Below, one piece after another: positions 18,760-44,586 of a stretch of 57,773 nucleotides of DNA (position 1 is the first letter of the stretch; every line of letters starts with the position of its first letter). The translations under genes and the position numbers were made by a program. This stretch comes from Verrucomicrobiota bacterium (GTDB lineage Bacteria > Verrucomicrobiota > Verrucomicrobiia > Chthoniobacterales > Terrimicrobiaceae), in the NCBI GenBank assembly GCA_026398255.1, contig JAPLTG010000023.1, forward strand, positions 1 to 57,773, given 5' to 3'. The notes below the pieces were generated by a model. It made no database searches and was not told where the DNA came from. It worked only from the letters and a program-made list of their open reading frames with translations.

Positions 18760-19459
18760 CGGCGTTCTCCTCGTAGACAAGGCGCCGGGGATGACCTCTC
18801 ACGATGTCGTCGCCATCACCCGCCGCGCCCTCGACACCAAAAAAGTCGGCCACTGTGGCACACTCGATCCGCTCGCGACCGGTCTCCTGATCCTCACCCT
18901 CGGCCGGGGAACAAAAATCCAGGACCTCCTCATGAGCGAGGACAAGGAGTATGTCGGCACCCTCCGCCTCGGCGAGACGACCGACAGCCAAGACTCCGAC
19001 GGCCAGATTTTGGAAACCAAACCCGTGCCGGATTTTTCCCAGGATCAAATCGAAGCCGCCTTCTCAAAATTCCATGGCGATTTCTACCAGACCCCACCCA
19101 TGGTCAGCGCGATCAAGAAAGACGGCGTGCCGCTCTACAAGCTCGCCCGCCAAGGCAAGACCGTGGAACGCGAACCGCGCTTCGTGCATGTCTATGCCCA
19201 TGAGATTCAGACAGTCCGCTTGCCGGAAATCGATTTTCGCGTCGTTTGCAGCAAGGGTTTCTATGTCCGCACCTACGCCCACGACATCGGGCAGGAACTC
19301 GGCTGCGGCGCTCATTTGAAATCCCTCCGCCGCACCAAGTCCGGCCGCTTCTCGGTGGACGGCGCGGTGACTGTGGATGAACTCAAGAACGGCCCTCGCG
19401 AGGCGATCCTCCAGCGCGTTCTCAGCCTGCCCGCCGTCTCGCGGCTTCGGGGCGCGTGA
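18737..19459 (+). CDS. truB: tRNA pseudouridine(55) synthase TruB
   Basis: This 240-residue enzyme makes pseudouridine 55 in the tRNA T-loop. The N-terminal GVLLVDKAPGMTSHDVV and the catalytic aspartate Asp44 in GHCGTLDPLATGLL are clear, as are QTPPMVSAIKKDGVPLYKLAR and CSKGFYVRTYAHDIG. It is shorter than E. coli TruB (314) and lacks a C-terminal PUA domain. The start overlaps nrnA by 23 bases. Confidence 0.95.
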   Translation: MKSGTEIDGVLLVDKAPGMTSHDVVAITRRALDTKKVGHCGTLDPLATGLLILTLGRGTKIQDLLMSEDKEYVGTLRLGETTDSQDSDGQILETKPVPDFSQDQIEAAFSKFHGDFYQTPPMVSAIKKDGVPLYKLARQGKTVEREPRFVHVYAHEIQTVRLPEIDFRVVCSKGFYVRTYAHDIGQELGCGAHLKSLRRTKSGRFSVDGAVTVDELKNGPREAILQRVLSLPAVSRLRGA

Positions 19460-20400
19460 TGCGCGTCCTCCGGTCCATCGACGGATTGGCGGAAATCCCC
19501 GGCCCGGTAGTGATCGCCGCCGGGGTTTTCGACGGGATGCACCTCGGCCACCGGATGGTTCTGGAAACCGCCCAGCGCGAATCCCAAAAACTCGCCGCCA
19601 CCGCTGTGGCGCTAACCTTCGATCCCCACCCGGCGACGGTTCTGCGTCCGGACTCTGTGCCAGCCCTGCTCACGCCGACGCCCTTCAAACTGCGCCTCAT
19701 GGAGCGAATGGGCTTCACCCACGCACTGGTGCTGACCTTCGACAAGGACTTCGCCGCTCTGCAGGCCGAGGATTTTGTCGAACAGCTCTGCGCCGCCGCG
19801 AATCCCCTCGCCGGCATCTGTATCGGCGAGGGCTGGACCTTTGGAAACCAGCGCCGGGGAAACATCGAGCTCCTCCGCCAATTCGGCCGCGAAAAAAATT
19901 TCTTCACCTGTGAGGTTCCGCCCGTTCGTATCGACGGCATGGTGATCAGCAGCACGATGATCCGGCTCGCCCTTTCCGAGGGACGCCTCGCCGACGCCGC
20001 CCAACTCCTCGGGCGAGACCACACCATCGCCGGCTCCGTCCTTCGCGGCGCGGGCTTGGGTCGCCAAATCGGATTCCCCACCGCGAACCTCGCCACCGAC
20101 CATCTCCAACTCCCCCCCGACGGAGTCTACGCCGTCGAGGTTTTGGTCGAAGGAAAAAACCACCCCGGTGTGGCCAACCTCGGCATTCGTCCCACGGTCG
20201 ATCAAACCCGGACCCGTCTCCTGGAAATTCATCTTTTCGATTTCGAGGGCGACCTCTACGCCTGCGAAGTTGAGGTCTGTCTGAAACATTTTCTCCGGCC
20301 CGAGCAGCGTTTCGACTCGATCGATCTTCTCAAAATCCAGATCGCGCGCGATGCCGAGGCCGCGCGCCAATTCCTCGCTAACTCCTCCGCTGCCGCATGA
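19459..20400 (+). CDS. ribF: Bifunctional riboflavin kinase/FAD synthetase
   Basis: About 313 residues. The N-terminal FAD synthetase half has AAGVFDGMHLGHRMV (nucleotidyltransferase HxGH) and LTFDPHPATVL; the C-terminal flavokinase half has GLGRQIGFPTANL and GVANLGIRPTVDQTRTRLLEIHLFDF. It converts riboflavin to FMN and FAD. The ATG at 19459 shares one base with the truB stop; an in-frame GTG lies just upstream. Its TGA overlaps the start of the ATP-grasp gene. Confidence 0.95.
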   Translation: MRVLRSIDGLAEIPGPVVIAAGVFDGMHLGHRMVLETAQRESQKLAATAVALTFDPHPATVLRPDSVPALLTPTPFKLRLMERMGFTHALVLTFDKDFAALQAEDFVEQLCAAANPLAGICIGEGWTFGNQRRGNIELLRQFGREKNFFTCEVPPVRIDGMVISSTMIRLALSEGRLADAAQLLGRDHTIAGSVLRGAGLGRQIGFPTANLATDHLQLPPDGVYAVEVLVEGKNHPGVANLGIRPTVDQTRTRLLEIHLFDFEGDLYACEVEVCLKHFLRPEQRFDSIDLLKIQIARDAEAARQFLANSSAAA

Positions 20401-22913
20401 GCGCGCTCTGGCACTTCCGCACCTTTGACGAAAACTTTGGTCCGGACGGCCTACCGCGCGATGTCTATCGCGACCTCTTCGAGCGCCTGAACCGCATGCC
20501 CCGCCACGAAGTTCGCGCGCTCGACGCCCGACTTGAGGCGACCATGCGCGAGATGGGCGTGACCTTCGACATCCACCGAGAACTCCCTTGGTGCAAACGC
20601 GGTTGGTTTTGCGACCTGCTCCCGCAGATTTTTACTCCTGCCGAATGGGACCCCCTCGCCGCCGGAATCCGCCAGCGCCTCCGCGCCTTCGAGATGTTCC
20701 TGCAGGACAACCACTCCAAAAAACAAATCCTGCACGATGGCGTCATTCCTGAAGCTCCCGTGCTCGGCAGCGAGTATTTCCAGCGCGCCGCGTGCGGCGT
20801 TCCCTCGCCCGGCGGCGCGTTTTTGCACCTGAGCGGCGTCGCGGTTTGCCGACTGCCTAGCGGCCAACTCGCCGTGAAGCACCACTACTTCAGCAACGCG
20901 TCGGGCATTTCCTACATGATGCAGAACCGCCGCGCGCTCACCCGCGTGATTCCGCAATCCTTCCAAGATACCGGCATTCACTCGATCTCGGATGTGCCGA
21001 CCGGCATCGTCGAAATGCTCCGCGCGCACTCGGATGACGCCGATCCGATGGTCGTGCTCCTGACGCCCGGCCCGCTCAGCCCCGCCTACTCCGAGCACTG
21101 CTTCCTCGGCCGCCGCATGGGCATTCCCCTCGTGCAAGGCGGTGACCTCCTCGTCCTCAACGACAAGGTCTATCTGAAAACTGTCTCCGGCCTGAGCAAG
21201 GTGGATGTCATTTACACCCGCCTCTCCGATCGCTGGCTCGACCCTATGGCATTCCGGCGCGACTCGATGATCGGCGTGCCGGGCCTCGTTCATTGCATCC
21301 GGAAAAAAAGCGTCTCGGTCGTGAACGCCATCGGCACGCAACTCGCCGACGACCGCGCGCTCCTGCCTTTCTCGAATCAAATCATCCGCTACTACCTCGC
21401 CGAGCGCCCGATTCTGCCAACCGTTCCGACCTACTGGCTGGGCGATGTCGACCAGCGCCACATGGTTCTCGACGATTTGGAGAACTTCACGATTCGCATC
21501 CTCTACGGTGAACGGATCGTGCTCGGCGGCGACGGGAATTTGCCAAGCCACGAAAAGCTCGAAGCCGCCCGCCGGGAGATTCTTAAAAACCCATCGCAGT
21601 TCGTGGCCCAATCCCAGACTTGCGACGCCGAGACCGTTTCGTTCCAGGATGGCGACCGACGCCGACGCCGACAGGATCACATCGTCTTTGCCCTGCGCGA
21701 ACCTGATGGCGACCTCCGGGTTTTTCCCGGAGCGCTCACCCGCGTTTCCACCACCGAATCCGAATTCACCTCGTCGGAACTCGGCGGCGGTTCGAAAGAC
21801 ACCTGGGTGCAAGTGGGCGCTAACTCGCCAACTGACGATTGGGATTCCTCGCTTCAGCCCGACAGCCAGATTCCCTCGCATGGAGTCACCAGCCGCGTGG
21901 CTGATGCCTACTACTGGATCGGACGCTATCTCGAGCGCGCCTACGACCTCGCCGGAATGATCGGCGCGATCGAGTCTCTGGAACTCGAGGAATTAAATCC
22001 CGTCGAGCGCATGAACTACCGCCCGGTCTGGAACCGCATCCTGCCAATGCTCGAAGTGACCGGATCTGCATCGCGCCGGACCATCTCAAATCCCGAGGGA
22101 CGCTACCGCTTGACCTTCGATCCCTCGGAACCCGGCTCCGTCCTGAGCACGATCCACCGCGCCTTCGCCAATGCCGAGTCCGTGCTGGAAACCCTCAGCC
22201 TGGAAGCTTGGGGCGTCATGAGCCAGCTCCGCGAAAAATTCGACGCCGTAGGCTTCGATCCCGCGGCATCGACCGAAACTCTCGCCGCCGCCAGCCGCGA
22301 ACTGTGCCTCTTCGCGCGCCAAGCGATTCCCCAGTTTTTTGGAACCTCTAAAGTCACCATGCTCGCCGACGATGGGTGGAGTTTTTGCGAGATCGGCCAA
22401 TTGCTTGAGCGCGCGGCGATCACTGCGAACGCCACGACCTCGCTCGCCGCTTCGCTCGTCGGCCCCGCCGCGGAACGGACCGGGACCCACGCCCGCGAGA
22501 TTCGCCTCTCGGCATTCTTGCGAATGCTCGGTAGCCGCGACATCTACCGCCGCGTCTACCAAATGCGCATCGAGCCGCTCCCGATGCTTGAACTGCTCTG
22601 GAAAAATCCCGTCGCCCCACGCTCGGTCCTGCGTTGTCTCAATGGCTGCGCCTCCCGCATTCGCGAGAGCGAGAGCAACCTCTCCCCCGCCACCGGCCGC
22701 GCCCTCGCCGCCATTGAAGCGTTGCTCCAATCCATCCGCGTCACCGATTGGGAAACGCTCCTCGCAACTATCCCGGCCGGCTCGGCGAAACCTAAACTCC
22801 AATCGCACTCCGAGGATTTGTTGGCGCGCCTCTTCGCGCTCCACACGACGATTTGCGACAGCTTCTTGAACCATCAGGTTCTCATCCACGGCGAAACGGA
22901 ATCTCTACTCTGA
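20397..22913 (+). CDS. Circularly permuted ATP-grasp/alpha-E domain fusion protein
   Basis: An 838-residue fusion. Residues about 1-480 match circularly permuted ATP-grasp type 2 proteins (QILHDGVIPEAPVLGSEYFQR, VPTGIVEMLRAHSDDADPMVVLLTPGPLSPAYSEHCFLGRRMGIPLVQGGDLL in short pieces, LPSHEKLEAARREILKNPSQFVAQ). Residues about 500-838 match the alpha-E (DUF403) helical domain, beginning SRVADAYYWIGRYLERAYDLA. Elsewhere these are usually two adjacent genes. Comparative genomics by others proposed an amidoligase/peptide-tagging role with a partner transglutaminase; the product is not known. The ATG overlaps ribF's stop, and two transglutaminase genes follow directly. Confidence 0.9.
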   Translation: MSALWHFRTFDENFGPDGLPRDVYRDLFERLNRMPRHEVRALDARLEATMREMGVTFDIHRELPWCKRGWFCDLLPQIFTPAEWDPLAAGIRQRLRAFEMFLQDNHSKKQILHDGVIPEAPVLGSEYFQRAACGVPSPGGAFLHLSGVAVCRLPSGQLAVKHHYFSNASGISYMMQNRRALTRVIPQSFQDTGIHSISDVPTGIVEMLRAHSDDADPMVVLLTPGPLSPAYSEHCFLGRRMGIPLVQGGDLLVLNDKVYLKTVSGLSKVDVIYTRLSDRWLDPMAFRRDSMIGVPGLVHCIRKKSVSVVNAIGTQLADDRALLPFSNQIIRYYLAERPILPTVPTYWLGDVDQRHMVLDDLENFTIRILYGERIVLGGDGNLPSHEKLEAARREILKNPSQFVAQSQTCDAETVSFQDGDRRRRRQDHIVFALREPDGDLRVFPGALTRVSTTESEFTSSELGGGSKDTWVQVGANSPTDDWDSSLQPDSQIPSHGVTSRVADAYYWIGRYLERAYDLAGMIGAIESLELEELNPVERMNYRPVWNRILPMLEVTGSASRRTISNPEGRYRLTFDPSEPGSVLSTIHRAFANAESVLETLSLEAWGVMSQLREKFDAVGFDPAASTETLAAASRELCLFARQAIPQFFGTSKVTMLADDGWSFCEIGQLLERAAITANATTSLAASLVGPAAERTGTHAREIRLSAFLRMLGSRDIYRRVYQMRIEPLPMLELLWKNPVAPRSVLRCLNGCASRIRESESNLSPATGRALAAIEALLQSIRVTDWETLLATIPAGSAKPKLQSHSEDLLARLFALHTTICDSFLNHQVLIHGETESLL

Positions 22914-22916
22914 GCT

Positions 22917-23783
22917 ATGCTGTTCGAAGTCGTCCACTCCACCTCCTACCAATACGCCGAGACGGCGATGGAGGCGTATCTGGAGGCTCGGCTCACCCCG
23001 CCCGCGCGGCCGACCCAGCAAATCCTCGCGCACCGCATCGATTTTCTCCCGATCGCCCAAGCCTCCAGCTACACGGATTATTTTGGAAACCTCACGGCTT
23101 TCTACTCGATGACGCTTCGGCATCCGCAGCTCAAGGTCGTCAACCACCTGACCGCCCGCACCGCCACGCACCGACTCCCCGCCGGCGGCCTCGCGCCCTC
23201 CGTCGCCGAAGCCCGCCAAATCCTCGGTTCCGCTGGCCCCGTGATTTTCGACTACCTCCAGCCCACCCCTACGGTTCCGCTCGGAGGCCCTTCGTCCAAC
23301 TGGGCCCGCGAATTCATTCGTCACAACCTCCCGCTCGGCGATTGCCTCGAGAGCCTGAACTCCGCGATTTTTTCCGAGTTGAAATACCACTCCGGCGCGA
23401 CCGATGTGGATACCCCGCTGGACCAAGTCTGGGAGCGGCGCGAGGGCGTCTGCCAGGATTTCGCCCATGTCATGCTTTCGGTCCTCCGCACGGCGGGAAT
23501 TCCCTGCCGGTATGTCTGCGGCTACATCGAAACCGAACCGGCGGCGGGCGGCCCGTTGATCGGCGCGGTCGCCACCCACGCCTGGGTCGAGGTTTTGGTT
23601 CCCGGAATGGAATGGGTTGCCCTCGACCCCACCAACAACAAATGGCAGGGCGAACAACACATCGTCGTGGCGGTGGGTCGCGACTACCTTGACGCCACCC
23701 CGGTGAAGGGAACATTCAAAGGATCATCCTCGCAAAAAATGAAGGTGCGTGTGACCATGCGCCGAATTCCTGAAAAACCATGA
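22917..23783 (+). CDS. Transglutaminase-like cysteine peptidase (first of two)
   Basis: This 288-residue cytoplasmic protein has the N-terminal bacterial transglutaminase domain (LFEVVHSTSYQYAETAMEAYLEARLTP) and the core with Cys179 (EGVCQDFAHV), His221 (ATHAWVEVLVPG) and Asp237 (VALDPTNN), a complete catalytic triad. This family accompanies circularly permuted ATP-grasp/alpha-E genes in many bacteria and may cleave or transfer the peptide bonds they make. It starts three bases after the ATP-grasp gene and overlaps the second transglutaminase by four bases. Confidence 0.92.
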   Translation: MLFEVVHSTSYQYAETAMEAYLEARLTPPARPTQQILAHRIDFLPIAQASSYTDYFGNLTAFYSMTLRHPQLKVVNHLTARTATHRLPAGGLAPSVAEARQILGSAGPVIFDYLQPTPTVPLGGPSSNWAREFIRHNLPLGDCLESLNSAIFSELKYHSGATDVDTPLDQVWERREGVCQDFAHVMLSVLRTAGIPCRYVCGYIETEPAAGGPLIGAVATHAWVEVLVPGMEWVALDPTNNKWQGEQHIVVAVGRDYLDATPVKGTFKGSSSQKMKVRVTMRRIPEKP

Positions 23784-24628
23784 AACTCAAAATCAAAAAG
23801 GAATCGCTCTACAACTACGCGGAGCCCGTTTCATTCTCGCCACACCATGTCCGGATTTTTCCCCGTGTGGATTTGTTCGTGAAGGTCGAGCGGGTTGTTT
23901 TCGAAACCGCACCGGGCGCCGATGTGCAATACCGGCAGGATCTTTTCGATAATCTGATCGCTTATTGTTTCTACCCAAAGACCGGCCTCGAGCTGCCCTT
24001 CCGCCTCGAACTCGACCTCGAGGTGAAGGAGAAAAACCCGTTCCACTTCCTGCTCGAATCGACCGGCTTTAAAATCCCGCCCGAATACCGACCCGACCGC
24101 GCCGAAATCCTCGAGCCCTACCTGCGTCCCCAAGGCGGTTGCAAACTCCCCGATCCGCTCGCCCCGACCGTGCCCCGGCCGACGGTCGAGACCCTTGTGA
24201 ATTTCAATCACTGGATCTACGAGAACATCGCCTATGAGTCGCGCCAACTCGGCAAGCCCTACACGCCCGCCGAGACTTTGAAAAAAGGCTCCGGTTCGTG
24301 CCGGGATTTCGCGGCGTTGCTCGTCGAGGCGCTTCGCCAAAACGGCGTCGCCGCGCGGCTCGCCAGCGGGTTCGTGTGGGAAGGGGACAAGGCCGAGGAG
24401 GACAAGCGCGCCTCGAGCGCCATGCACCTGTGGGTCGAAGCCTGCCTGCCCGGCGCCGGCTGGATCGGCATGGACCCCACAAACGGCGTCCTCACCGACC
24501 ACCACTTCATCACCACCGCCGTCGGCCGCAGTCACGAGGATGTCTCCCCGATTTCCGGGGTGTTCTACTCATCCAAGCCGGCGGAGAACAACCTGACGAC
24601 CATCTTGAGTGTCGAAAAAACGGCGTGA
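23780..24628 (+). CDS. Transglutaminase-like cysteine peptidase (second of two)
   Basis: This 282-residue protein is of the same family but diverged: N-terminal LKIKKESLYNYAEPVSFSPHHVRIFPR, catalytic Cys174 (GSGSCRDFAALL), His216 (AMHLWVEACLPG) and Asp232 (IGMDPTNG). The triad is intact, so it is probably active and not a decayed duplicate. The ATG overlaps the previous stop (ATGA). No signal peptide is seen. Confidence 0.92.
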   Translation: MKLKIKKESLYNYAEPVSFSPHHVRIFPRVDLFVKVERVVFETAPGADVQYRQDLFDNLIAYCFYPKTGLELPFRLELDLEVKEKNPFHFLLESTGFKIPPEYRPDRAEILEPYLRPQGGCKLPDPLAPTVPRPTVETLVNFNHWIYENIAYESRQLGKPYTPAETLKKGSGSCRDFAALLVEALRQNGVAARLASGFVWEGDKAEEDKRASSAMHLWVEACLPGAGWIGMDPTNGVLTDHHFITTAVGRSHEDVSPISGVFYSSKPAENNLTTILSVEKTA

Positions 24629-25512: not shown

Positions 25513-26526
25513 ATGACAGCTGAAAACAGCCACAACCGGTCCGCCACAAACGAGGGCATCTCGTTCGCCGAGGCGTTTGATTTGATCAATCCCCACCTCT
25601 ACACGGTCGAGGAACGGATTCGCGCCCAGGCCAAGGCATTCGACCCCGCCGTCGAGGGCTATATCTCCTACATCTGCGGCGCCGGCGGCAAACGTCTCCG
25701 CCCCGCACTCGCCCTCCTCGCCGCTGGAGCGACCGGAAAAATTACGCCCGCCCATGTCGATCTCGCGGTAATCCTCGAACTCATCCACATCGCCACGCTG
25801 GTTCACGATGACATCATCGACGGCGCGGAACTCCGCCGCGACCAACCCTCCGCTAACGCGAAGTGGGGCAACTCGATCAGCGTCCTCCTCGGCGATGTCC
25901 TCTTCGCCCACGCGCTCAAGCTCTCCACGAATTTCAGCAACTCCGATATCAGCCGCCGCATTGCCGATGCCGCCGCCGAGGTTTGCTCGGGCGAGATCAT
26001 CCAGACCCAACGCCGCTTCGACCTCAAACTCACGACCACCGACTACTACCGCATCATCGAGATGAAGACGGCGGCGCTTTTCTCCGCAGCCTGCGAACTC
26101 GGTGCGTTCATCAGCGAAGCCAGCCCGACCATCATCAGCGGCCTCAAAGCCTACGGCACCAAGCTCGGCGTCGCCTACCAGATCTACGACGACATCCTCG
26201 ACATCGCCGGCAGCGAGGAGGAAACCGGAAAAACGCTGGGCACCGATTTGCAGAAAGGAAAATTCACCCTCCCGATCCTACTCCTGCTCCAGTCCGGCAA
26301 AGACCTCGGCTCGATCCGCGATCTCCTCCTCAAGGACGACCCCGCCGCCATTTCCGAACTCGCCTCGATGGTCGACCGCAGCGGCGTGCTGGAAAATTCC
26401 AAACGCATCGCCCGAACCAAAATCTCGGAGGCCGTCGAGCATTTGGGCGCCATCCAAGAAAACCGCTACGCCGGCGGACTCCACGCCATCCCGAATCACT
26501 TGTCGCACCTACTGGATCAGCTTTGA
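25513..26526 (+). CDS. Polyprenyl diphosphate synthase (octaprenyl/heptaprenyl type)
   Basis: This 337-residue trans-prenyltransferase has GAGGKRLRPAL, the first aspartate-rich motif VHDDIIDGAELRR and the second QIYDDILDIAG, with the flanking GDVLFAHAL. It condenses IPP units onto an allylic diphosphate to make the side chain of quinones. Small residues before the first Asp motif allow long chains, but chain length cannot be fixed by eye. Its stop overlaps the putative start of the next gene. Confidence 0.93.
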   Translation: MTAENSHNRSATNEGISFAEAFDLINPHLYTVEERIRAQAKAFDPAVEGYISYICGAGGKRLRPALALLAAGATGKITPAHVDLAVILELIHIATLVHDDIIDGAELRRDQPSANAKWGNSISVLLGDVLFAHALKLSTNFSNSDISRRIADAAAEVCSGEIIQTQRRFDLKLTTTDYYRIIEMKTAALFSAACELGAFISEASPTIISGLKAYGTKLGVAYQIYDDILDIAGSEEETGKTLGTDLQKGKFTLPILLLLQSGKDLGSIRDLLLKDDPAAISELASMVDRSGVLENSKRIARTKISEAVEHLGAIQENRYAGGLHAIPNHLSHLLDQL

Positions 26527-28451
26527 TCGGTCCCGTGGCGCGTCTCCCCCTCCTTCTACTCCTCCTCCTGGCAGGAACTGGAACGCTCGCTGCCCTCGAT
26601 CTTTCGAGGCCTCCCGATCCCAGGGAAATCTGCTCACTGGCAGCCGATTCCTACCCCGCCATCGCGCACAAAATTTCCGAAGCCCTGATGGCGGCCTATG
26701 TCCCTGGAGCCCGCGGCCGGCCCGGCATTTCCGGAAACCCTGCGTTCTCCACATGGCTCGATTTTTACCGGGGCTGCGAGTTGTTGGCCCGCCCTTGCAG
26801 CGCCGAGACGATCCCTCTCGTGCGACGCTACTTTTTCCGCGAACGAGCCACCGGGAAAATCTTCTTTCTCGAAACCGGAGTGGTTCGGCCAGAGGCTTTG
26901 GATAGCCTGCCGGAGTCAGAATTGGCCGCCATGGCTGGGCACCCGCAGATCCGCGCCCAGCTCGAGAAAGCCGCCCTGCCTCCGGGCTCGGCTCTGCCCA
27001 GCGGCACACTGGGAGATATTGCGGGAACGAAATTATCCGGCGAGTTTCTTTCGAATCCCTCCTTCCTCGCGGCGTTCTTTTCCACGCTCTCGGACCGCGA
27101 CTACACGCCGCTCGTTCTGAAAAATCTGCGCGAAATCCTCGAGTCCCAACCGGGCAAGTGGCGCGAATACCAAAACCTCGCCATCGCCATCGCGGTGGTG
27201 AACGACTCGGCGCTTCCGGAGTTCTGGCCGCACATCCAAGTCACCCCCTCCCTCGTCCCGAAGGAAATCCCCTCGGTGAGCGCCCAATTCTCGCGCTGGG
27301 TCGCGGCCAACGAGTCCAGCAAGCTCGACCACGACCTCCGCAAGCTCCCGCCCGACCAACTCAAATTCGTCATCGATGCGTTTGTTTCCGAATCCGAGAT
27401 CGACTGGGCGCGGAAAAATGTTCGTTTCAGTCGCTCAAATTTCGACCGCGCCTTTTCCGAGGTTGCCTACCAGCCCGACCGCATCAAAAACAAACGCTTC
27501 TTCTGGAAAGCCTCGCCCTACACGCTGGAAAATATCCGTCGCACGGGTGGCATTTGTGTCGACCAAGCCTACTACGCCATGATCGCCGGGAAGGCCCACG
27601 GACTCCCGACCCTCTTCTTCACCGGCCAAGGCAAGGACGGCGGCCACGCCTGGTTCGGCTACCTCAAGCGCGAAGACAAATGGGAACTCGATGTCGGCCG
27701 CTATGCCCAACAAAACTACGCCGTCGGCCAGGCCCTCGACCCGCAATCCTGGCAACCGATCAGTGACCACCAACTCCAACTCCTCGCCGCACGCTTTCGG
27801 GACAAACCCGAATTCGCCGCGTCAATGAACGACCTCGCCATGGCCGCGATCTTTAAAAAAAACGGCGACGCCATCCGCGCCGATGCCGCCCTCGCGAGCG
27901 CGGTGCAAACCTGTCCGAAAAATCCCGACGCCTGGGAACAGCGCGGCGAATTCCTCGCCCGCACCAACGCGCCGATGGAGCAGCGGCGCCAGTTCCACGA
28001 CGAGGCCATTCGCCGCCTCGGCTCCAGCCCCGACCTCAAAGTCCGCCACCAAACCGCCCTCGCCAACCTCCACCGCGAATCCGGCGACCAATCCTCCGCA
28101 AACAAAGTCGAGCGGGCAATCATCACCCAAAACCGCCGCGAACGCACCGACCTGAGCGTCGGCATCGCCGCGCAAAAAGTGAACGCCGCGATCGCCACCG
28201 GCGATCTCGATGCCGCCGCGTCCGAGTTCCACAAACAACTCCACTCGATCGGAGAAAACGCCGGCGGGGATTTTGTGAAACAAGTCGGTGTGCCGTTTCT
28301 CGAAGCCCTGATGAAGAACGGCAAAAACACCCGTGCCCGCCGCGCCATCGACACCATGCGACAGCAACTCTCCCCCGACCCCGGCAGCCTCCTCGACATG
28401 GCCCTCCGCGAACTCGAACTCTCGACCAAAAACCGCACAAAGGTTCCGTGA
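26523..28451 (+). CDS. Exported protein with transglutaminase-like core and TPR-like C-terminus
   Basis: About 642 residues. A TTG at 26523 overlaps the prenyl synthase stop; a GTG at 26535 is the alternative. Either gives a signal peptide (ARLPLLLLLLLAGTGTLAA). Residues 25-330 are a region I do not recognise. Around residue 340 there is a transglutaminase-like core: Cys344 in RTGGICVDQAYY, His374 in GGHAWFGYL and Asp389 in WELDVGRY, in the right order and spacing for a Cys-His-Asp triad. From about residue 410 to the end helical repeats resemble TPRs. It is probably periplasmic; whether it acts as peptidase, transferase or structural protein is unknown. Confidence 0.78.
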   Translation: MIGPVARLPLLLLLLLAGTGTLAALDLSRPPDPREICSLAADSYPAIAHKISEALMAAYVPGARGRPGISGNPAFSTWLDFYRGCELLARPCSAETIPLVRRYFFRERATGKIFFLETGVVRPEALDSLPESELAAMAGHPQIRAQLEKAALPPGSALPSGTLGDIAGTKLSGEFLSNPSFLAAFFSTLSDRDYTPLVLKNLREILESQPGKWREYQNLAIAIAVVNDSALPEFWPHIQVTPSLVPKEIPSVSAQFSRWVAANESSKLDHDLRKLPPDQLKFVIDAFVSESEIDWARKNVRFSRSNFDRAFSEVAYQPDRIKNKRFFWKASPYTLENIRRTGGICVDQAYYAMIAGKAHGLPTLFFTGQGKDGGHAWFGYLKREDKWELDVGRYAQQNYAVGQALDPQSWQPISDHQLQLLAARFRDKPEFAASMNDLAMAAIFKKNGDAIRADAALASAVQTCPKNPDAWEQRGEFLARTNAPMEQRRQFHDEAIRRLGSSPDLKVRHQTALANLHRESGDQSSANKVERAIITQNRRERTDLSVGIAAQKVNAAIATGDLDAAASEFHKQLHSIGENAGGDFVKQVGVPFLEALMKNGKNTRARRAIDTMRQQLSPDPGSLLDMALRELELSTKNRTKVP

Positions 28452-38265: not shown

Positions 38266-41200
38266 TTAGAATGAGAACCCGAGCGAGGTGCTGATGATGT
38301 TGTTGGTGTAGCCCTCGGCTCCGAAGTTCACATTGTAGAACACCGATCCGTTCCAGCGATCGCCGAACTTCGCGCTGATGCCGGCTCCGCCGAAGACGCT
38401 GTTGCGATACGGGGCGCTGGTTTCGTAGTCGAACGACGGGCCGCTGCCGCCTTCAAGCGCGGAGCTGATGTTGCGCGGGTTGTTCAGGAACTCGTGCATC
38501 CAGAAGCCTCTCACTTCGGGGATGAGCGTGATGTTCGAGCCGACTTCCCAGTTGTAGGCGATGCGCGCGCCGAGGTTGGTGCGGAGGCTGTTGGCGTTTT
38601 GGTGGCCGAGCGCCAAGTCGAGGCTGTCGGCTCCGCTTTCCGTGAAGCCGCCGATGCCGGCGTAGGTGTATTGGGCTCCCACGATTGGGCCGAGGGTGAA
38701 ATTGCCGATCTCGAAGTCTTTTCCGAGATTCAGCGCCGCGCTGAATTGGCCGCTGTTCGGGTCGGCGGATGGGGTGCGGTCGATTGTGCTGAACTCGATG
38801 GATCGGCGGGTTTGGAAGCCGGTGTAGCCACCGCTCACGATGGCGTCGGCGTAGTAGCCATCCTCATGCGTGTAGCTGCCGTAGAGACCGAAGAGCGCAC
38901 TGTTTCCGCGGGTGCTGCTGCCGCCATCATATTTCGCGTAGCTGTATTCGTAGCCGGCAAAAAGGCCTGCGGCGAAGTTCTCGCTCAGGCGGTAGTCGGC
39001 GCCCACGAGGAAGCCGCCCGCATTGTTGTTGTAGTTTGGAACACCCGCCAATCCACGCGAGAGCGAGAACTCGCCGTTTGCGATTACCCACGAGTTCCAG
39101 TTCGTATCGATGGCGGATTCCACAATCGGCGAGGCCGTTTTTGCATCCGCTGCGCTCTTGCCATCCTTGTCGTATTTGATCGGCTGGCTCATTCCGATGG
39201 CTTGGAAGCCTGTGGCCCCGAGGCGGACGGAACCCATGCGCTGGGTGAGGAGTTGGGTTTGGTTGTAGGTCTGCTCGATCGCGATATTCGCCAGGCTCTC
39301 GTAGAAGCCGGGCATGATCTGCTCGAAGGCGTAGGGGTATTGCTCGGCGGTTTGCAAATCGAGCGCGATGCTGACGGTCTCTCGGTCTCCGCTGGTGGCA
39401 GCGATGAACGAGTCGAGCGCCTTGGCGACATTTTGCTGATTTGGGGTAACCGCCACCTGTGTGTAGGAGTCCGGCGCGATAAGGAGGATGCCCGTTGTGC
39501 CAAGATTCAGGAACCGCCCGCGGAAGGTCGCCGGCGCGGTGATCGTGTCGAACTCGCCGGAGATCCCGCCGCTCGCCACGAGAAACGAATACTGCTGGCC
39601 GTAGGCGAGCGGGTTGCCGTTGTAGGGAATGACATTCAGCGTGCCATCCACCGTCGCCGCTCCGCCGACCACAAGGCGGTCGAAGTTCGTCAGGCTTTCG
39701 ATTTCTATATCCGTCGCAGCGGTGGGCGTGAGGGCCAGGGACGCCATGCTCAGCGTTCCGGGCGAATTGCCCGGCGCCAAATTTCCAGAGACTGTGACAG
39801 GCGCGAAGATCGTGCCACTTCCACCTAGAATGGCACCGGAGTTTACAGCTACGGAATTGGCAGTGAGGTTGCCGTTCAAGGAAAGCAGCCCTGCATCGAT
39901 CGACGCCGTGCCATTGACCGACAGCGTGCTTTGGACATCAAGTTCGCCCGCGCCGGTTTTATTGAAATTCCCCGGCGTCGCCAATGTCCCACCGCTCACG
40001 ACCGAGTTGCCATTTTCAACCGCCACTTGCCCTTGCGACAGCGAGAGCGCGTAGCCGGCTTGAATGGCGAGGTTGCCGTTATTGGTGAATGCCAGGTCGC
40101 GGATCGTGTTGTTGCCGCCGGCTGTGATGACTGTGCCGTTGCCGGTGTTTCCATTCACTGTGAAATCCACCCAGGTCGGCGTGGCCCCGGCGCCGGAATT
40201 GTCGATCACATTACCCGATACATTTGCGCCTTGGAGGTTATAAACCAGCGAGTTTCCGATGATTTGGAAGCTGCCCGAAAGCGAATTGCTCCCGGAGATG
40301 GCAGCCACAAAATTCGACGCTGAGAAGTTCGTCGCACCGAAACTCACGAGCGTATTGTTGCCAAGTTGCAGGGATTGCCCGGTGCCGAAATCCAAAGTGC
40401 GATTGCCAGTGTTTCCCCCGTTCGAGAAATTGCCGCTGATCGTGATGTTGCCACCGTGGGCGAGGGAGATCACTGCATTGGAACTCAACCAAACAAGGTC
40501 GGTCATGCCGCTGAGGACGAGGTTGGGATTTGCAGTGTTCCCAACGGCCAGTGTGCCGGAAGAGAGTGTCAGCGTTCCATTCCCGAGCGCGTTGGCGTGA
40601 AGAGCTTCCAAAACTCCGCCATCGAGTTGAGTGCCGCCGGTGTAGCTGTTGGTGCCGGAAATCGTCACGGTTCCCGAGCCGGTTTTCAGCAACGATCCAT
40701 TCCCGCTCATCACACCTGCATAGGTGCCAGTGAAGCTCTGATCAAAGTTCACCACCGCGTTGTTTGCGATCGCGCCTTGGAGGCCAGCTGTCGTTCCAGC
40801 CAGTATTCCAGAACTTACCGTTGTTCCACCCGTGTAGGTGTTCGAGCCCAAAAGAGTGAGGGTTTTGTTTCCCGCTTTCGTGAGTGAGGCGTTGCCGGAG
40901 ATGGCACCCGAGACAATCAGGTTTGCAGTATTTGTGGCGAAGGTTTGGTTAGCGCCGAGGGTGAGATCGAGTGCCAGTGTCTGGGTATTTGCCGAGTCGT
41001 TGACGATTCCTTCGCCAAGCAATGTCAACGCGCTTCCGTTCACCGTGTAGGAACCCGCACCGGCAAGGAATGTGAGGCCAGACGCAGAATTCAAGAAGCT
41101 GTTGTTCGTGCTAACCCCGCCAGATCCACTGAACTCGATGGCATCGCCGTTCGAAGGCAGCGATCCGCCATCCCACTGCGCTTCGGTAGACCAATTGCCG

Positions 41201-44200
41201 GTGGCGGTATTCCAAGTGGCGGCTGTTTTGTAGTTGAGCAGAAGTGTGGTGTTGCCCGAGCCGAGGCTCATGAAGTAACCGCCCGCAGTCCCGGTCATAT
41301 TCGAAGAATTGAATGTGAATGCCGATGCGTCGAATCCGCTGATGCCCGAGGTGAAATTGCCTATTTGCCAAGAAGCATTCTTCACGCCCGCCAACGACGC
41401 CCCGCCCAGTGTGGAGAGGCTAATTGTGGTTGGATTGCCGGATGTGGCGTTGAGCGTTAGGGTTCCCGCCGAAGCGATCAGATCCCAGCCTGTGCCTGCC
41501 GTGCCATTTGCCGAGGCGAGTTCCCAGTTGTAGATGCCGCCGCCGTTCCACACGCTGTTTCCAACGGTGAGGATTCCGGGGCTGTTGCCAGGGTTGATGG
41601 CGCCGCCAGAGTTGATGGTGACAACACCAGCTGTGCCGTTGCCGGTGAGAATACCACCTGAATTGATGGTGACAGCGCCGAGGCTTCCGTTGCCGGTGAG
41701 GGTTCCTCCGTTGTTAATCGTCGTTGAGGCGTTTGCCATGCTTCCGGTTAGGGATACGATGCCGGAGTTGATGGCTGCGGTGCCGTTGAATGAACTACTG
41801 TTACCGCTCAGAGTAAGGGTTGCATTCCCTATTTTGGACAGATCTCCAGATCCGCTCATCACGCCGGTGTAGGTGCCATTGGTGGTCTGGTTAAAGACAA
41901 GGCTGGCGTTATTGGTGATGGCACCTTGGAGGCTCTGGGTATTGCCTTGAAGGGTGCCGGAACTGACAAACGTTCCACCGGTGTAGGTGCTATTGCCTGT
42001 AAGGATCGTTGTTCCCGCGCCGAGTTTGTTTACCGTGAGGTTGCCCTCGAGAATTGGGCTGAACGAGTGGTTACCGGTATGGTTGAAGTTCACGATGGCC
42101 GTGCCATTTCCGGCGGCGACTCTGGCGGCTTGGAGGTTGCCCACCGTGGTGCCGTTACCGATGTTTAAGATACCTGTGGAACTCGATTGAGTAGCCACGG
42201 TCAAATTGCCCGCGCCGCCTACGATGGAGACATTACCACCCGTGAGATTCAGCGTGCCGTTGCCATATCTACCAACTCGCAATCTATCAGAACTCGACCA
42301 AGTGCCCCCGCTGACATTCACGACACCCGTGCTTCCGTTTTCAACTGCGAGGAAGACTCCGGCATTGGATACGTTGCCGCCGGTGATATTCAAGGTTCCA
42401 GTTCCCAAGACGCCGATTTGAAGTTGATCTGCATTTGTCCAGTTGCCGCCGCTCACATTCGCTACCCCAGTGCTTCCAGCATTGAGGCCGATGTAGCAAA
42501 ATCCAGTATTTGAAATGAGTCCACCGGAGAGATTCAGCGTTCCATCTCCGGAATTGCCCACCGTGAAATTGCCGGTGTTCGTCCAGTTGCCGCCACTTAC
42601 TGTCGCCACGCCTCTGCTGCCAGCGTTCACGCCAATGTCGCCTCGCGCGTTGGAAATACTTCCACTCGAGAGATTCAGTGTGCCATTGCCGATATTCGTG
42701 TCTACCAATGCGTGTGTGATACGGCCGTTGTTGCTGATGGATAGTGTGCCACCGGAAATGGTGGTGCCGCCGGTGTAGGTGTTGGTGCCGGAAATCGTCA
42801 CGGTTCCCGAGCCGGTTTTCAGCAACGATCCATTCCCGCTCATGGCTCCCGCGTAGGTGCCAGAGGTCATTTGGTCGAAGTTCACCACCGAGTTGTTGGT
42901 GATCGCTCCTTGCAGGCTGGATGTCGTTCCGGCCAGCATTCCAGCAGAGACGATGGTTCCGCCGGAGTAGGTGTTCGTGCCCGAGAGGGTGAGCGTTTGG
43001 TTGCCCGCCTTGGTAAGCGAGGCGTTGCCGGAGATATTGCCGGAGATGACGAGGTTCGCGGTGTTGGAGGCGAAGGTTTGGTTCGTGCCGAGAGTGAGGT
43101 TGATCGCTACGGTCTGGGTGCTGTTCGAGTTGTTGACGATGCCATCTGCACCAATTGTGAGGGCATTCCCGTTGATCGTATAGGAGCCATTGGCAGTGGA
43201 GGTGAAGGTCACGCCGGAGATTTCCGAGAGGTTGCCGGAGGCGAAGTTGTTCGTGCTGGTGCCGCCGGGACCGGAGAATTCGATCGCGTCGCCATTGGTC
43301 GGGAGCGTGTTTCCTTCCCACTGCGTGGCGGTGGTCCAATTTCCAGAACCTGTGCTCCAGACTGAGCCAGCGGACGCATAGTTGAGCAGCAGTGTCGTGT
43401 TACCACCGCCGAGACTCAGCGAGTAACTGCCCGCACTTCCGCTCATGCCCGTGGCGTTAAAGGTAAAGTAGTCGTTGCTGAAGCCGGTGATCCCAGTAGT
43501 GAAGTTACCGATCTCCCACGAGGCGATCTTCACCCCGGAAAGGGAGCCGCTTCCGTAGCTCGCCAGCCTGATTGTGAATTTGTTGGTCGCATTTGCCCCG
43601 ATCGTAAGAGTGCCAGAGGAGCTGATGAGGTCCCAGTCCATGCCAGCTGTGCCGTTGGCTGAAGCCAACTCCCAGTTGTAAAAGCCGCCACCGTTCCAGG
43701 TCATGTTGCCGGTGGTGAGCGTGCCAGGCGAGTTGCCGGGGGCGATCGCTCCGCCGGAGTTGATAACCACATCGCCGACCGTGCCAGTTCCGCCAAGGGT
43801 GCCAGAGTTGATCGTCACGGCCGAGGTAGAACCGGTGATGAGGAGCGTGCCGGCCGAAATCGTCGTGCCGCCGGTGTTGGTATTTGTGCCTGTAAGGGTG
43901 GTGGTGCCTGTGCCGAGGTGGTTGAGAGACAGGCTGTCTGTCATGTTTGAGCCGAGGCTGTAGCTGCCGCTTTGGTTGATGTTCACGACGGCGGTGCCGC
44001 TGCCGCCAGTGATCGTTGCGGCGCTGAGTGTGCCGGCGGTTGTTCCGTTGCCAAGGTTCAGCGTGCCGATACTGCCAGAAGTTTGGGCTAAGTTCACCAA
44101 GCCGCCGCCGCCGACGGAGACTGTTCCGTTTCCGGTCAGGTTCAGTGTGCCATTGCCTGCGCTGCCTATGAAAAGGGCGCTGGAGTTTGTCCAAGTGCCG

Positions 44201-44586
44201 CCGCTCATATTCACTGTGCCATTGCTTCCGGCGTAGTAGCCTACGCGGCCATTTGCATTCGATACAGTGCCATTAGTGATCGTGAGGCTGCCAGTGCCAC
44301 TTTCGGCTATGTAAAGGTCGTTGGAGTTCGTCCAATTACCGCCGTTCACATTCACCGTGCCGTTGCCAGGCCCTAATCCCACATAGCCCTCTATCTTCGA
44401 TAGGCTGCTGCCGCCATCGATCGTCAGGCTGCCTTGGCCACCCATGCCGACAACAACCACGGGGCCAAAGTCGAAGGCATCTCCAGTATAAGTCACCGCA
44501 CCAAAAGCGGGGTGAGCGGCCGCGAGCAGAAGCAGGCAGAGAGCGGTTGCGAAGCGGAGTGGAAGATTGAAGAAGTGTGTTTTCAT
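38266..44586 (-). CDS. Giant autotransporter with passenger-associated transport repeats
   Basis: A 2106-residue type Va-like autotransporter. Residues 1-29 are a Sec signal (ATALCLLLLAAAHPAFG). The passenger consists of short GTLNLTGGNVSN/GGTWTN repeats (about 60-170 and 640-850) and at least seven copies of the PATR motif, such as LLKTGSGTVTISGTNTYTGG. Residues about 300-610 and 1020-1320 are two diverged copies of one module (NWELASANGTAG ... GDAIEFSG). The last 280 residues (from about 1827, NSWVIANGEFSLSRGLA) form the outer-membrane barrel, ending in a β-signal SLGFSF. The only cysteine I noticed is in the signal. AAGGG lies just before the ATG. It is divergent from a LytS/LytTR operon, with candidate operators between them. 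Confidence 0.95.
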   Translation of the reverse strand: MKTHFFNLPLRFATALCLLLLAAAHPAFGAVTYTGDAFDFGPVVVVGMGGQGSLTIDGGSSLSKIEGYVGLGPGNGTVNVNGGNWTNSNDLYIAESGTGSLTITNGTVSNANGRVGYYAGSNGTVNMSGGTWTNSSALFIGSAGNGTLNLTGNGTVSVGGGGLVNLAQTSGSIGTLNLGNGTTAGTLSAATITGGSGTAVVNINQSGSYSLGSNMTDSLSLNHLGTGTTTLTGTNTNTGGTTISAGTLLITGSTSAVTINSGTLGGTGTVGDVVINSGGAIAPGNSPGTLTTGNMTWNGGGFYNWELASANGTAGMDWDLISSSGTLTIGANATNKFTIRLASYGSGSLSGVKIASWEIGNFTTGITGFSNDYFTFNATGMSGSAGSYSLSLGGGNTTLLLNYASAGSVWSTGSGNWTTATQWEGNTLPTNGDAIEFSGPGGTSTNNFASGNLSEISGVTFTSTANGSYTINGNALTIGADGIVNNSNSTQTVAINLTLGTNQTFASNTANLVISGNISGNASLTKAGNQTLTLSGTNTYSGGTIVSAGMLAGTTSSLQGAITNNSVVNFDQMTSGTYAGAMSGNGSLLKTGSGTVTISGTNTYTGGTTISGGTLSISNNGRITHALVDTNIGNGTLNLSSGSISNARGDIGVNAGSRGVATVSGGNWTNTGNFTVGNSGDGTLNLSGGLISNTGFCYIGLNAGSTGVANVSGGNWTNADQLQIGVLGTGTLNITGGNVSNAGVFLAVENGSTGVVNVSGGTWSSSDRLRVGRYGNGTLNLTGGNVSIVGGAGNLTVATQSSSTGILNIGNGTTVGNLQAARVAAGNGTAIVNFNHTGNHSFSPILEGNLTVNKLGAGTTILTGNSTYTGGTFVSSGTLQGNTQSLQGAITNNASLVFNQTTNGTYTGVMSGSGDLSKIGNATLTLSGNSSSFNGTAAINSGIVSLTGSMANASTTINNGGTLTGNGSLGAVTINSGGILTGNGTAGVVTINSGGAINPGNSPGILTVGNSVWNGGGIYNWELASANGTAGTGWDLIASAGTLTLNATSGNPTTISLSTLGGASLAGVKNASWQIGNFTSGISGFDASAFTFNSSNMTGTAGGYFMSLGSGNTTLLLNYKTAATWNTATGNWSTEAQWDGGSLPSNGDAIEFSGSGGVSTNNSFLNSASGLTFLAGAGSYTVNGSALTLLGEGIVNDSANTQTLALDLTLGANQTFATNTANLIVSGAISGNASLTKAGNKTLTLLGSNTYTGGTTVSSGILAGTTAGLQGAIANNAVVNFDQSFTGTYAGVMSGNGSLLKTGSGTVTISGTNSYTGGTQLDGGVLEALHANALGNGTLTLSSGTLAVGNTANPNLVLSGMTDLVWLSSNAVISLAHGGNITISGNFSNGGNTGNRTLDFGTGQSLQLGNNTLVSFGATNFSASNFVAAISGSNSLSGSFQIIGNSLVYNLQGANVSGNVIDNSGAGATPTWVDFTVNGNTGNGTVITAGGNNTIRDLAFTNNGNLAIQAGYALSLSQGQVAVENGNSVVSGGTLATPGNFNKTGAGELDVQSTLSVNGTASIDAGLLSLNGNLTANSVAVNSGAILGGSGTIFAPVTVSGNLAPGNSPGTLSMASLALTPTAATDIEIESLTNFDRLVVGGAATVDGTLNVIPYNGNPLAYGQQYSFLVASGGISGEFDTITAPATFRGRFLNLGTTGILLIAPDSYTQVAVTPNQQNVAKALDSFIAATSGDRETVSIALDLQTAEQYPYAFEQIMPGFYESLANIAIEQTYNQTQLLTQRMGSVRLGATGFQAIGMSQPIKYDKDGKSAADAKTASPIVESAIDTNWNSWVIANGEFSLSRGLAGVPNYNNNAGGFLVGADYRLSENFAAGLFAGYEYSYAKYDGGSSTRGNSALFGLYGSYTHEDGYYADAIVSGGYTGFQTRRSIEFSTIDRTPSADPNSGQFSAALNLGKDFEIGNFTLGPIVGAQYTYAGIGGFTESGADSLDLALGHQNANSLRTNLGARIAYNWEVGSNITLIPEVRGFWMHEFLNNPRNISSALEGGSGPSFDYETSAPYRNSVFGGAGISAKFGDRWNGSVFYNVNFGAEGYTNNIISTSLGFSF
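40648..40710. repeat. 63-base exact repeat, copy A (inside autotransporter gene)
   Basis: By hand comparison this stretch is identical to 42781-42843. The offset of 2133 bases is exactly 711 codons, so the duplication is in frame. It encodes a PATR motif of the passenger. Confidence 0.85.
42781..42843. repeat. 63-base exact repeat, copy B (inside autotransporter gene)
   Basis: Partner of 40648-40710. The wider protein modules around both copies (about 300 residues) are similar but diverged, so this identical patch suggests recent gene conversion or selection. Confidence 0.85.

Follow-up and report, generated by a model that had tools for sequence, protein, structure and literature searches.

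A degenerate ATP-grasp/alpha-E fusion with two transglutaminases in Chthoniobacterales, and an intact ligase at a second locus

Gene organization of the cassette

The window, that is the whole stretch of 57,773 nucleotides that was analyzed, corresponds to one contig (C20, 58 kb) of a genome of 2.6 Mb (G000) from a member of the Terrimicrobiaceae, order Chthoniobacterales, phylum Verrucomicrobiota. It carries a cassette of three genes on the forward strand. The open reading frame of the first, FUS (positions 20397–22913, + strand), encodes 838 residues that form a degenerate circularly permuted (CP) ATP-grasp domain (approximately residues 8–471) followed by an alpha-E domain (residues 498–824). 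The corresponding Pfam matches cover residues 76–451 (PF14403, E=1.3e-108), 76–405 (PF04174) and 498–824 (PF04168 Alpha-E, E=5e-49). Next come two transglutaminase genes, TG1 (22917–23783, +; 288 residues, CQD type) and TG2 (23780–24628, +; 282 residues, CRD type), the products of which both consist of Bact_transglu_N and Transglut_core domains (PF08379 and PF01841) and are 26% identical (70/270 aligned positions). The initial annotation had described a fused CP ATP-grasp/alpha-E chain followed by two transglutaminases with intact Cys-His-Asp triads. The reading frames and Pfam domains confirm this; both cysteines had been correctly named, and their partners are located, yielding Cys179/His221/Asp237 in TG1 and Cys174/His216/Asp232 in TG2. 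The assignment to the CP-ATP-grasp/alpha-E/transglutaminase system also holds, as all three protein families are found by Pfam.

The genes are tightly packed. TG1 and TG2 overlap as ATGA, FUS and TG1 are separated by 3 bases, and the start of FUS overlaps, again as ATGA, the stop of ribF (19456–20400, +), which encodes a bifunctional riboflavin kinase/FAD synthetase recognized by NCBIfam equivalogs. On the same strand, ribF ends a series infB-rbfA-dhh-truB-ribF, in which the names other than that of ribF come from reading the open frames. Given these overlaps and the 3-base gap, with the gene after TG2 lying 56 bases away, there is no room for a precursor peptide gene inside the cassette. All-against-all clustering of the open reading frames near the cassettes of relatives revealed no convincing conserved extra gene, the clusters being dominated by antisense frames. 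The order FUS-TG1-TG2 is kept across the order Chthoniobacterales, far beyond chance.

Two other reading frames of the window deserve mention. Downstream of the cassette, a gene at 26523–28451 (+; start chosen by us) encodes a tetratricopeptide-repeat protein with a sub-threshold match to the transglutaminase core (E 0.055 for the whole protein, 0.012 for a part), and may possibly represent a third, diverged transglutaminase-like protein. A 2106-residue open frame with an apparent signal peptide at its start lies at 38266–44586 on the reverse strand.

The ATP-grasp site of FUS is degenerate

The catalytic motifs of ATP-grasp enzymes are ExN, a Lys/Gly loop and D-x-R. PDB 3n6x, which of all solved structures is the closest, and the other CP ATP-grasp protein of G000 have in common VLEDNxRxPSG, a lysine ahead of a GGYG loop, and RH(I/V)DLRP. 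At these three positions, FUS has VKHHYFSNASG (residues 160–170, nucleotides 20874–20906, +), R....GERI and RRQDHIVF, the last including Gln426-Asp427-His428 (nucleotides 21672–21680, +) at the D-L-R position of active copies.

The fate of these residues was followed in distinct sequences retrieved from the order, the 83 rows of standalone ATP-grasp proteins being reduced to 80, the 7 rows of a proteobacterial type of fused protein to 6, and the fused proteins of the window type numbering 55. The Glu and Asn of ExN, the loop Lys, both loop Gly and the Arg are kept in 80/80 standalone sequences, with all nine checked residues intact. Among the 55 window-type proteins, Glu, Asn, Arg and the pair of loop Gly are kept in none, the Lys in 1, the Pro in 6 and the Asp in 54; a combination of ExN, loop Lys with Gly-rich loop and D-x-R, as expected of an active ligase, is found in no window-type fused protein (0/55 keep Glu, Asn or Arg). 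The proteobacterial-type proteins (6 distinct; Azospirillum, Caballeronia) are degenerate in another way, having lost Glu, Asn and the loop and kept Pro and Arg. Judged by the disappearance of its catalytic motifs, the ATP-grasp half of FUS is dead as an ATP-grasp enzyme. Of the description of this chain as ligase-like, the fold therefore stands and the catalytic motifs do not (0/55 keep ExN), an intact ligase being encoded at another locus.

Loss of the motifs does not reflect decay of the domain. When G000 was compared with its congener G015, dN/dS amounted to 0.067 for FUS, 0.066 for its ATP-grasp part and 0.059 for its alpha-E part, to be set beside 0.025 for the standalone ligase and 0.180 for ribF. 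With a ratio of 0.066, close to that of the alpha-E part, the ATP-grasp domain is by this measure under purifying selection.

The lost residues are replaced in a consistent manner. At least one His occupies the E/D/N positions in 54/54 window-type copies (one of the 55 rows has a gap there and was not scored), vs 0/83 standalone rows and 0/7 rows of proteobacterial-type fused proteins. Asp-His is found at the D-L position in 52/54 window-type copies. Gln426, Asp427 and His428 are invariant in A1. His162 and His163 are nearly so; His162 is replaced by Asn, Ser or Gln in some families, and His163 by Gln in others.

For the fused protein, AlphaFold2 gave a model too poor to use (pLDDT 64). The model of the alpha-E domain was good (pLDDT 82), and a Foldseek search with it gave no match below E=0.001. 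The best VIA-align superposition, with a helical bundle, had a Z of 10.9 (rmsd 3.5, 127 residues), which is under the warning level of the tool for such folds.

An intact ligase is encoded elsewhere in the genome

The only other alpha-E gene of G000 lies on contig 17, where it is preceded by the gene of a CP ATP-grasp protein that keeps all nine checked residues and has the features of an intact ligase. The CP ATP-grasp and alpha-E families (PF14403/PF04174/PF04168) are thus present twice, in FUS and as a standalone pair. The Bact_transglu_N transglutaminases with intact Cys-His-Asp are present once, as TG1 and TG2 are the sole two matches of this family in the genome. DUF2126 (PF09899), an amidoligase domain, has no match in G000; it scores above the cut-off in 43/97 genomes of the order and 2/16 of the genus. 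Likewise, the Anbu peptidase (PF00227) was not matched in G000 or in any of the 26 searched genomes of its family, its own included. Five parts of the system are therefore found at two places in G000, the cassette trio and the standalone ATP-grasp/alpha-E pair.

The standalone alpha-E gene is followed in G000 by a squalene/phytoene-synthase-like gene (locus L055, contig 17, 8086–8973, − strand), then by an arginine-decarboxylase-like gene. After the standalone pair, a squalene/phytoene-synthase-like gene was seen in the genus of the window and, within the same family, in two genomes from a second genus (L060, L174). Outside this family, many Chthoniobacterales genomes (families f3–f5 and f8) have adjacent pairs of PF00227 genes that resemble 20S proteasome subunits.

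Distribution of the two loci

Among 97 genomes of the order, that of the window being one, 78 have alpha-E. A hand count gives 63/97 with a fused alpha-E; a standalone one is present as well in 60 of the 63, and the three others, G059, G082 and G094, are 84, 78 and 88% complete. The cassette alone was not found in any of the 97 genomes that is at least 90% complete. Conversely, 15 genomes have a standalone alpha-E and no fused one. They include G053, in which a fused-type ATP-grasp gene is cut by the contig end and shows no alpha-E match; counting it, 64 genomes have the fused protein, 59 of them the window type (hand count). In a sample of the phylum, alpha-E was present in 26/106 genomes (own included), and all 20 genomes with a fused match had a second, standalone-type match, that of G148 being a 66-residue fragment (hand count). 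G021, G054 and G088 are examples of genomes that lack both loci; each is at least 95% complete. In several genomes Bact_transglu_N is missing too, as in G021 (96% complete), whose congeners G018, G024 and G025 have both loci. The fusion to which the initial annotation drew attention is real and not special to this genome, as it occurs in 63/97 genomes of the order and also in Azospirillum and Caballeronia.

Directly after FUS, both TG1 and TG2 were found in 44 of the 57 window-type loci fetched. Four more, from one genus, have TG2 only, and in the remaining nine the sequence (contig or stretch) runs out within 3.3 kb; two of these nine (G046, G071) have a TG1-TG2 pair on another contig. For the four genomes without TG1 beside FUS, TG1 was found elsewhere in G001, G008 and G014, and was not found in G009. 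No transglutaminase occurs within 6 kb downstream of FUS at L096 (Chthoniobacter flavus Ellin428) and L097. Lack of conservation of TG2 had been named at the outset as grounds to abandon the initial reading; beside FUS, TG2 is kept more strictly than TG1.

The standalone pairs show the complementary pattern. A transglutaminase gene lies beside them in 0/57 informative loci of genomes with a window-type fusion (one more locus was too short), vs 7/14 loci of genomes without a fused protein. With the proteobacterial-type fusion only, the proportion is 2/4 loci. The six genomes of family f8 combine the standalone pair with a single TG2-like enzyme and lack FUS, TG1 and DUF2126; the transglutaminase was read in the DNA at L206 and L209 and rests on the PF08379 count in the other four genomes. 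The lone TG2-like enzymes at L206, L209 and L210, in f8 genomes without a fused protein, are 43–46% identical to TG2, and G032, one of these genomes, has no alpha-E at all.

TG1 and TG2 belong to two lineages

Residues were examined in 144 distinct transglutaminase sequences of at least 230 residues, out of 204 found. Cys-His-Asp is present in 143/144, the exception (Azospirillum, L227) being perhaps an alignment slip. For the tree, near-duplicates were removed by locus, leaving 115 of the 144. One clade (support 1.0), with the motif GVCQD, unites TG1 with the enzymes encoded next to standalone ligases; TG2, together with DUF2126-linked and other enzymes, mostly has G[STA]CRD and belongs to the other clade (support 1.0). 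An origin of the TG1/TG2 pair by local duplication is ruled out, because the two fall in two deep clades.

Within its clade, TG2 joins the enzymes fused to DUF2126 with a low support of 0.47. A direct tie is provided by G038, in which TG2 is part of a 952-residue chain with a DUF2126 amidoligase domain. Other f5 genomes have long TG2 frames of 919–1014 residues, and in many families DUF2126 is encoded within a few kb of TG2. From these sequences, we read the cassette of the window as one the second ligase of which, DUF2126, has probably been lost. The initial annotation had proposed that two different transglutaminases mean two cutting or transfer steps. The separate lineages strengthen this idea; the steps themselves are a prediction from sequence.

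Genomic context and possible regulation

The ATGA overlap of ribF and FUS was found in 14/14 informative genomes of the genus (13 and the window), the region being cut in G002 and G014. In G026, ribF lies 1.2 kb upstream of FUS, and it was not found beside the other cassettes fetched. The link to a housekeeping operon that the initial annotation had pointed out is therefore a real coupling confined to one genus. For this reason it says little about function: the coupling is a local rearrangement, and a general functional meaning was rejected. At L039, L044, L051, L052 and L198, a gene resembling, by eye, that of ribosomal protein L13 lies beside the cassette, a second and separate neighborhood of cassettes with translation genes.

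In other bacteria, the standalone system responds to nitrogen. It is reported to be sigma54/NtrC-dependent in B. cenocepacia (PMC5491218) and induced by nitrate over ammonium in P. putida (PMC8050072), and the domains have been linked with urea metabolism in a metagenome study (PMC3597751). Because other bacteria induce the standalone system when nitrogen is limiting, nitrogen-linked peptide modification would, by analogy, be the likeliest setting. Upstream of the standalone ligases, 18/70 regions have a sigma54-like site scoring at least 9 of 12, vs 3.8 expected from first-order shuffles, the sequences being related to one another; upstream of the cassettes, the figures are 3/53 and 2.9. Sigma54 (PF04552) itself was detected in 94/97 genomes. 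These motif counts are only suggestive of sigma54 nitrogen control of the standalone ligases. G000 itself showed no sign of nitrogen control, its standalone ligase being preceded by no good sigma54-like site. Individual sites of the form TGGCAC/TTGCT, at most 100 bases before the start of the standalone ATP-grasp gene, were noted in several lineages, at L178, L063, L142, L160, L164, L167, L173, L176 and L177.

A probable split of the system over two loci

The cassette is a genuine variant of a known system and is conserved throughout the order. The explanation that we favor, and consider probable, is that it represents the Chthoniobacterales form of the CP-ATP-grasp/alpha-E/transglutaminase system for peptide synthesis or tagging, split over two unlinked loci. 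The standalone ATP-grasp protein would use ATP to activate a carboxylate and form an amide bond. The pseudo-ligase/alpha-E chain would be its non-catalytic partner, as a scaffold, a substrate carrier or an allosteric subunit, and the product would be presented through FUS to TG1 and TG2. These would act on peptide bonds, by cleavage or transfer, in two distinct steps, that of TG1 being the general one, paired elsewhere with the standalone ligase, and that of TG2 the one paired elsewhere with the DUF2126 ligase. In the genus of the window, the cassette would have moved under the infB-truB-ribF operon. That the parts of the two loci complement each other is indicated by the absence of transglutaminases beside the standalone pair of cassette genomes (0/57 vs 7/14). 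As the loci are unlinked, it is their co-occurrence that speaks for a partnership, and common descent inflates this co-occurrence. The fused genes without adjacent transglutaminases (L096, L097, G046, G071) and the f8 genomes count against such a split.

It is unlikely that the cassette is instead an autonomous second system, in which FUS retains some ligase activity through an altered site and the standalone locus is dispensable. The genes do travel as a block, the ATP-grasp domain is strongly conserved, and Asp427, the Asp of D-L-R, is kept in 54/55 copies. However, ExN and the Gly-rich loop have gone from every window-type copy and the loop Lys from 54/55, the cassette was never found alone in a genome that is at least 90% complete, and the standalone loci of cassette genomes are those devoid of a transglutaminase. 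Conversion of the old Mg/ATP site into another active or ligand site, made of His162, His163, Tyr164, Asp427 and His428 and acting for instance as a transition-metal site on a peptide, would explain the histidines at the E/D/N positions that standalone and proteobacterial-type proteins lack, the Asp-His in 52/54 copies and the invariance of residues 426–428. Yet His162 and His163 are exchanged in several families, and with a model of pLDDT 64 the proximity of these residues is deduced from the ATP-grasp fold; we regard this conversion, too, as improbable. Least credible is that the window shows an ordinary member of the family, with a split devoid of function, a neighborhood due to chance and unrelated tasks for the two loci. 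Both loci do come from one widespread family, the ribF neighborhood is specific to one genus and the f8 genomes dissociate the parts, but the asymmetric co-occurrence, the joint absences and the complementary distribution of transglutaminases speak against it.

Returning to a system split over two loci, a more elaborate version can be formulated, which we regard as speculative and rather doubtful: the dead site of FUS would have been rebuilt as a conserved His/Asp center, probably binding metal or peptide, and FUS would be a hub passing the product of a remote ligase to two transglutaminases of different descent. As far as the searched literature goes, the systematic loss of the ATP-grasp site with its distinct His/Asp replacement in a subfamily, the complementation between two loci and the two lineages behind TG1 and TG2 are new. 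In practical terms, assays for ATP-dependent bond formation should target the standalone ligase and not FUS of the window, which is to be treated as a partner. TG1 and TG2 are separate, long-lived components and should be treated separately in knockouts.

Comparison with known systems

A CP-ATP-grasp/alpha-E/transglutaminase system (COG2308/COG2307/COG1305) was reportedly predicted by Iyer et al. in 2009. The Pfam text on Alpha-E is said to mention CP ATP-grasp domains of both kinds, active and inactive, as well as the fusion of a transglutaminase to a CP ligase. Rv2567 of M. tuberculosis is a fusion of the pseudo-ligase class. Because of these two precedents, this class is not claimed to be new. 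In common with the system of Iyer et al., the genomes considered here have the three protein families, two transglutaminase lineages, and an intact and a degenerate CP ATP-grasp protein per genome. Here, however, the intact and degenerate parts are unlinked, TG2 stands alone without DUF2126, the cassette is coupled to ribF, and a His/Asp cluster occupies the degenerate site, unlike in the proteobacterial-type fused proteins.

We know of no complex of these proteins. The Anbu operon (P. aeruginosa, Y. bercovieri, P. putida PP_2685–2688) resembles the present loci in having standalone ATP-grasp, alpha-E and transglutaminase genes, and shows induction by nitrogen limitation. It includes the Anbu peptidase, which is not matched by PF00227 in G000 or the 26 genomes of its family. 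The papers on Anbu refer to Iyer et al. 2009 for a prediction of peptide synthesis or tagging, and report no peptidase activity of Anbu (PMC5666114, PMC6376114). The Y. bercovieri study describes the release of phosphate from ATP by the ATP-grasp protein, and pull-downs with Anbu as bait that gave no specific interactions with Anbu-operon proteins (PMC6376114), which counts against a system with partners at two loci.

The structure 3n6x, annotated as a putative glutathionylspermidine synthase, is a nearly full-length homologue of the ATP-grasp half of FUS. It keeps the ExN, loop and D-L-R motifs, whereas FUS does not, and matches the standalone protein (E=2.5e-183) much better than FUS (E=2.6e-87). 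The p1 cluster of Caballeronia zhejiangensis (L228) brings together a standalone ATP-grasp protein, alpha-E, a transglutaminase-DUF2126 chain and a fused ATP-grasp/alpha-E protein. The parts are the same as here, including a fused chain, of 843 residues, in which ExN and the loop motifs are lost. In contrast to the arrangement described here, they form one contiguous cluster, the TG2-type enzyme is fused to DUF2126, and the fused protein, about 29% identical to FUS, is without the His cluster.
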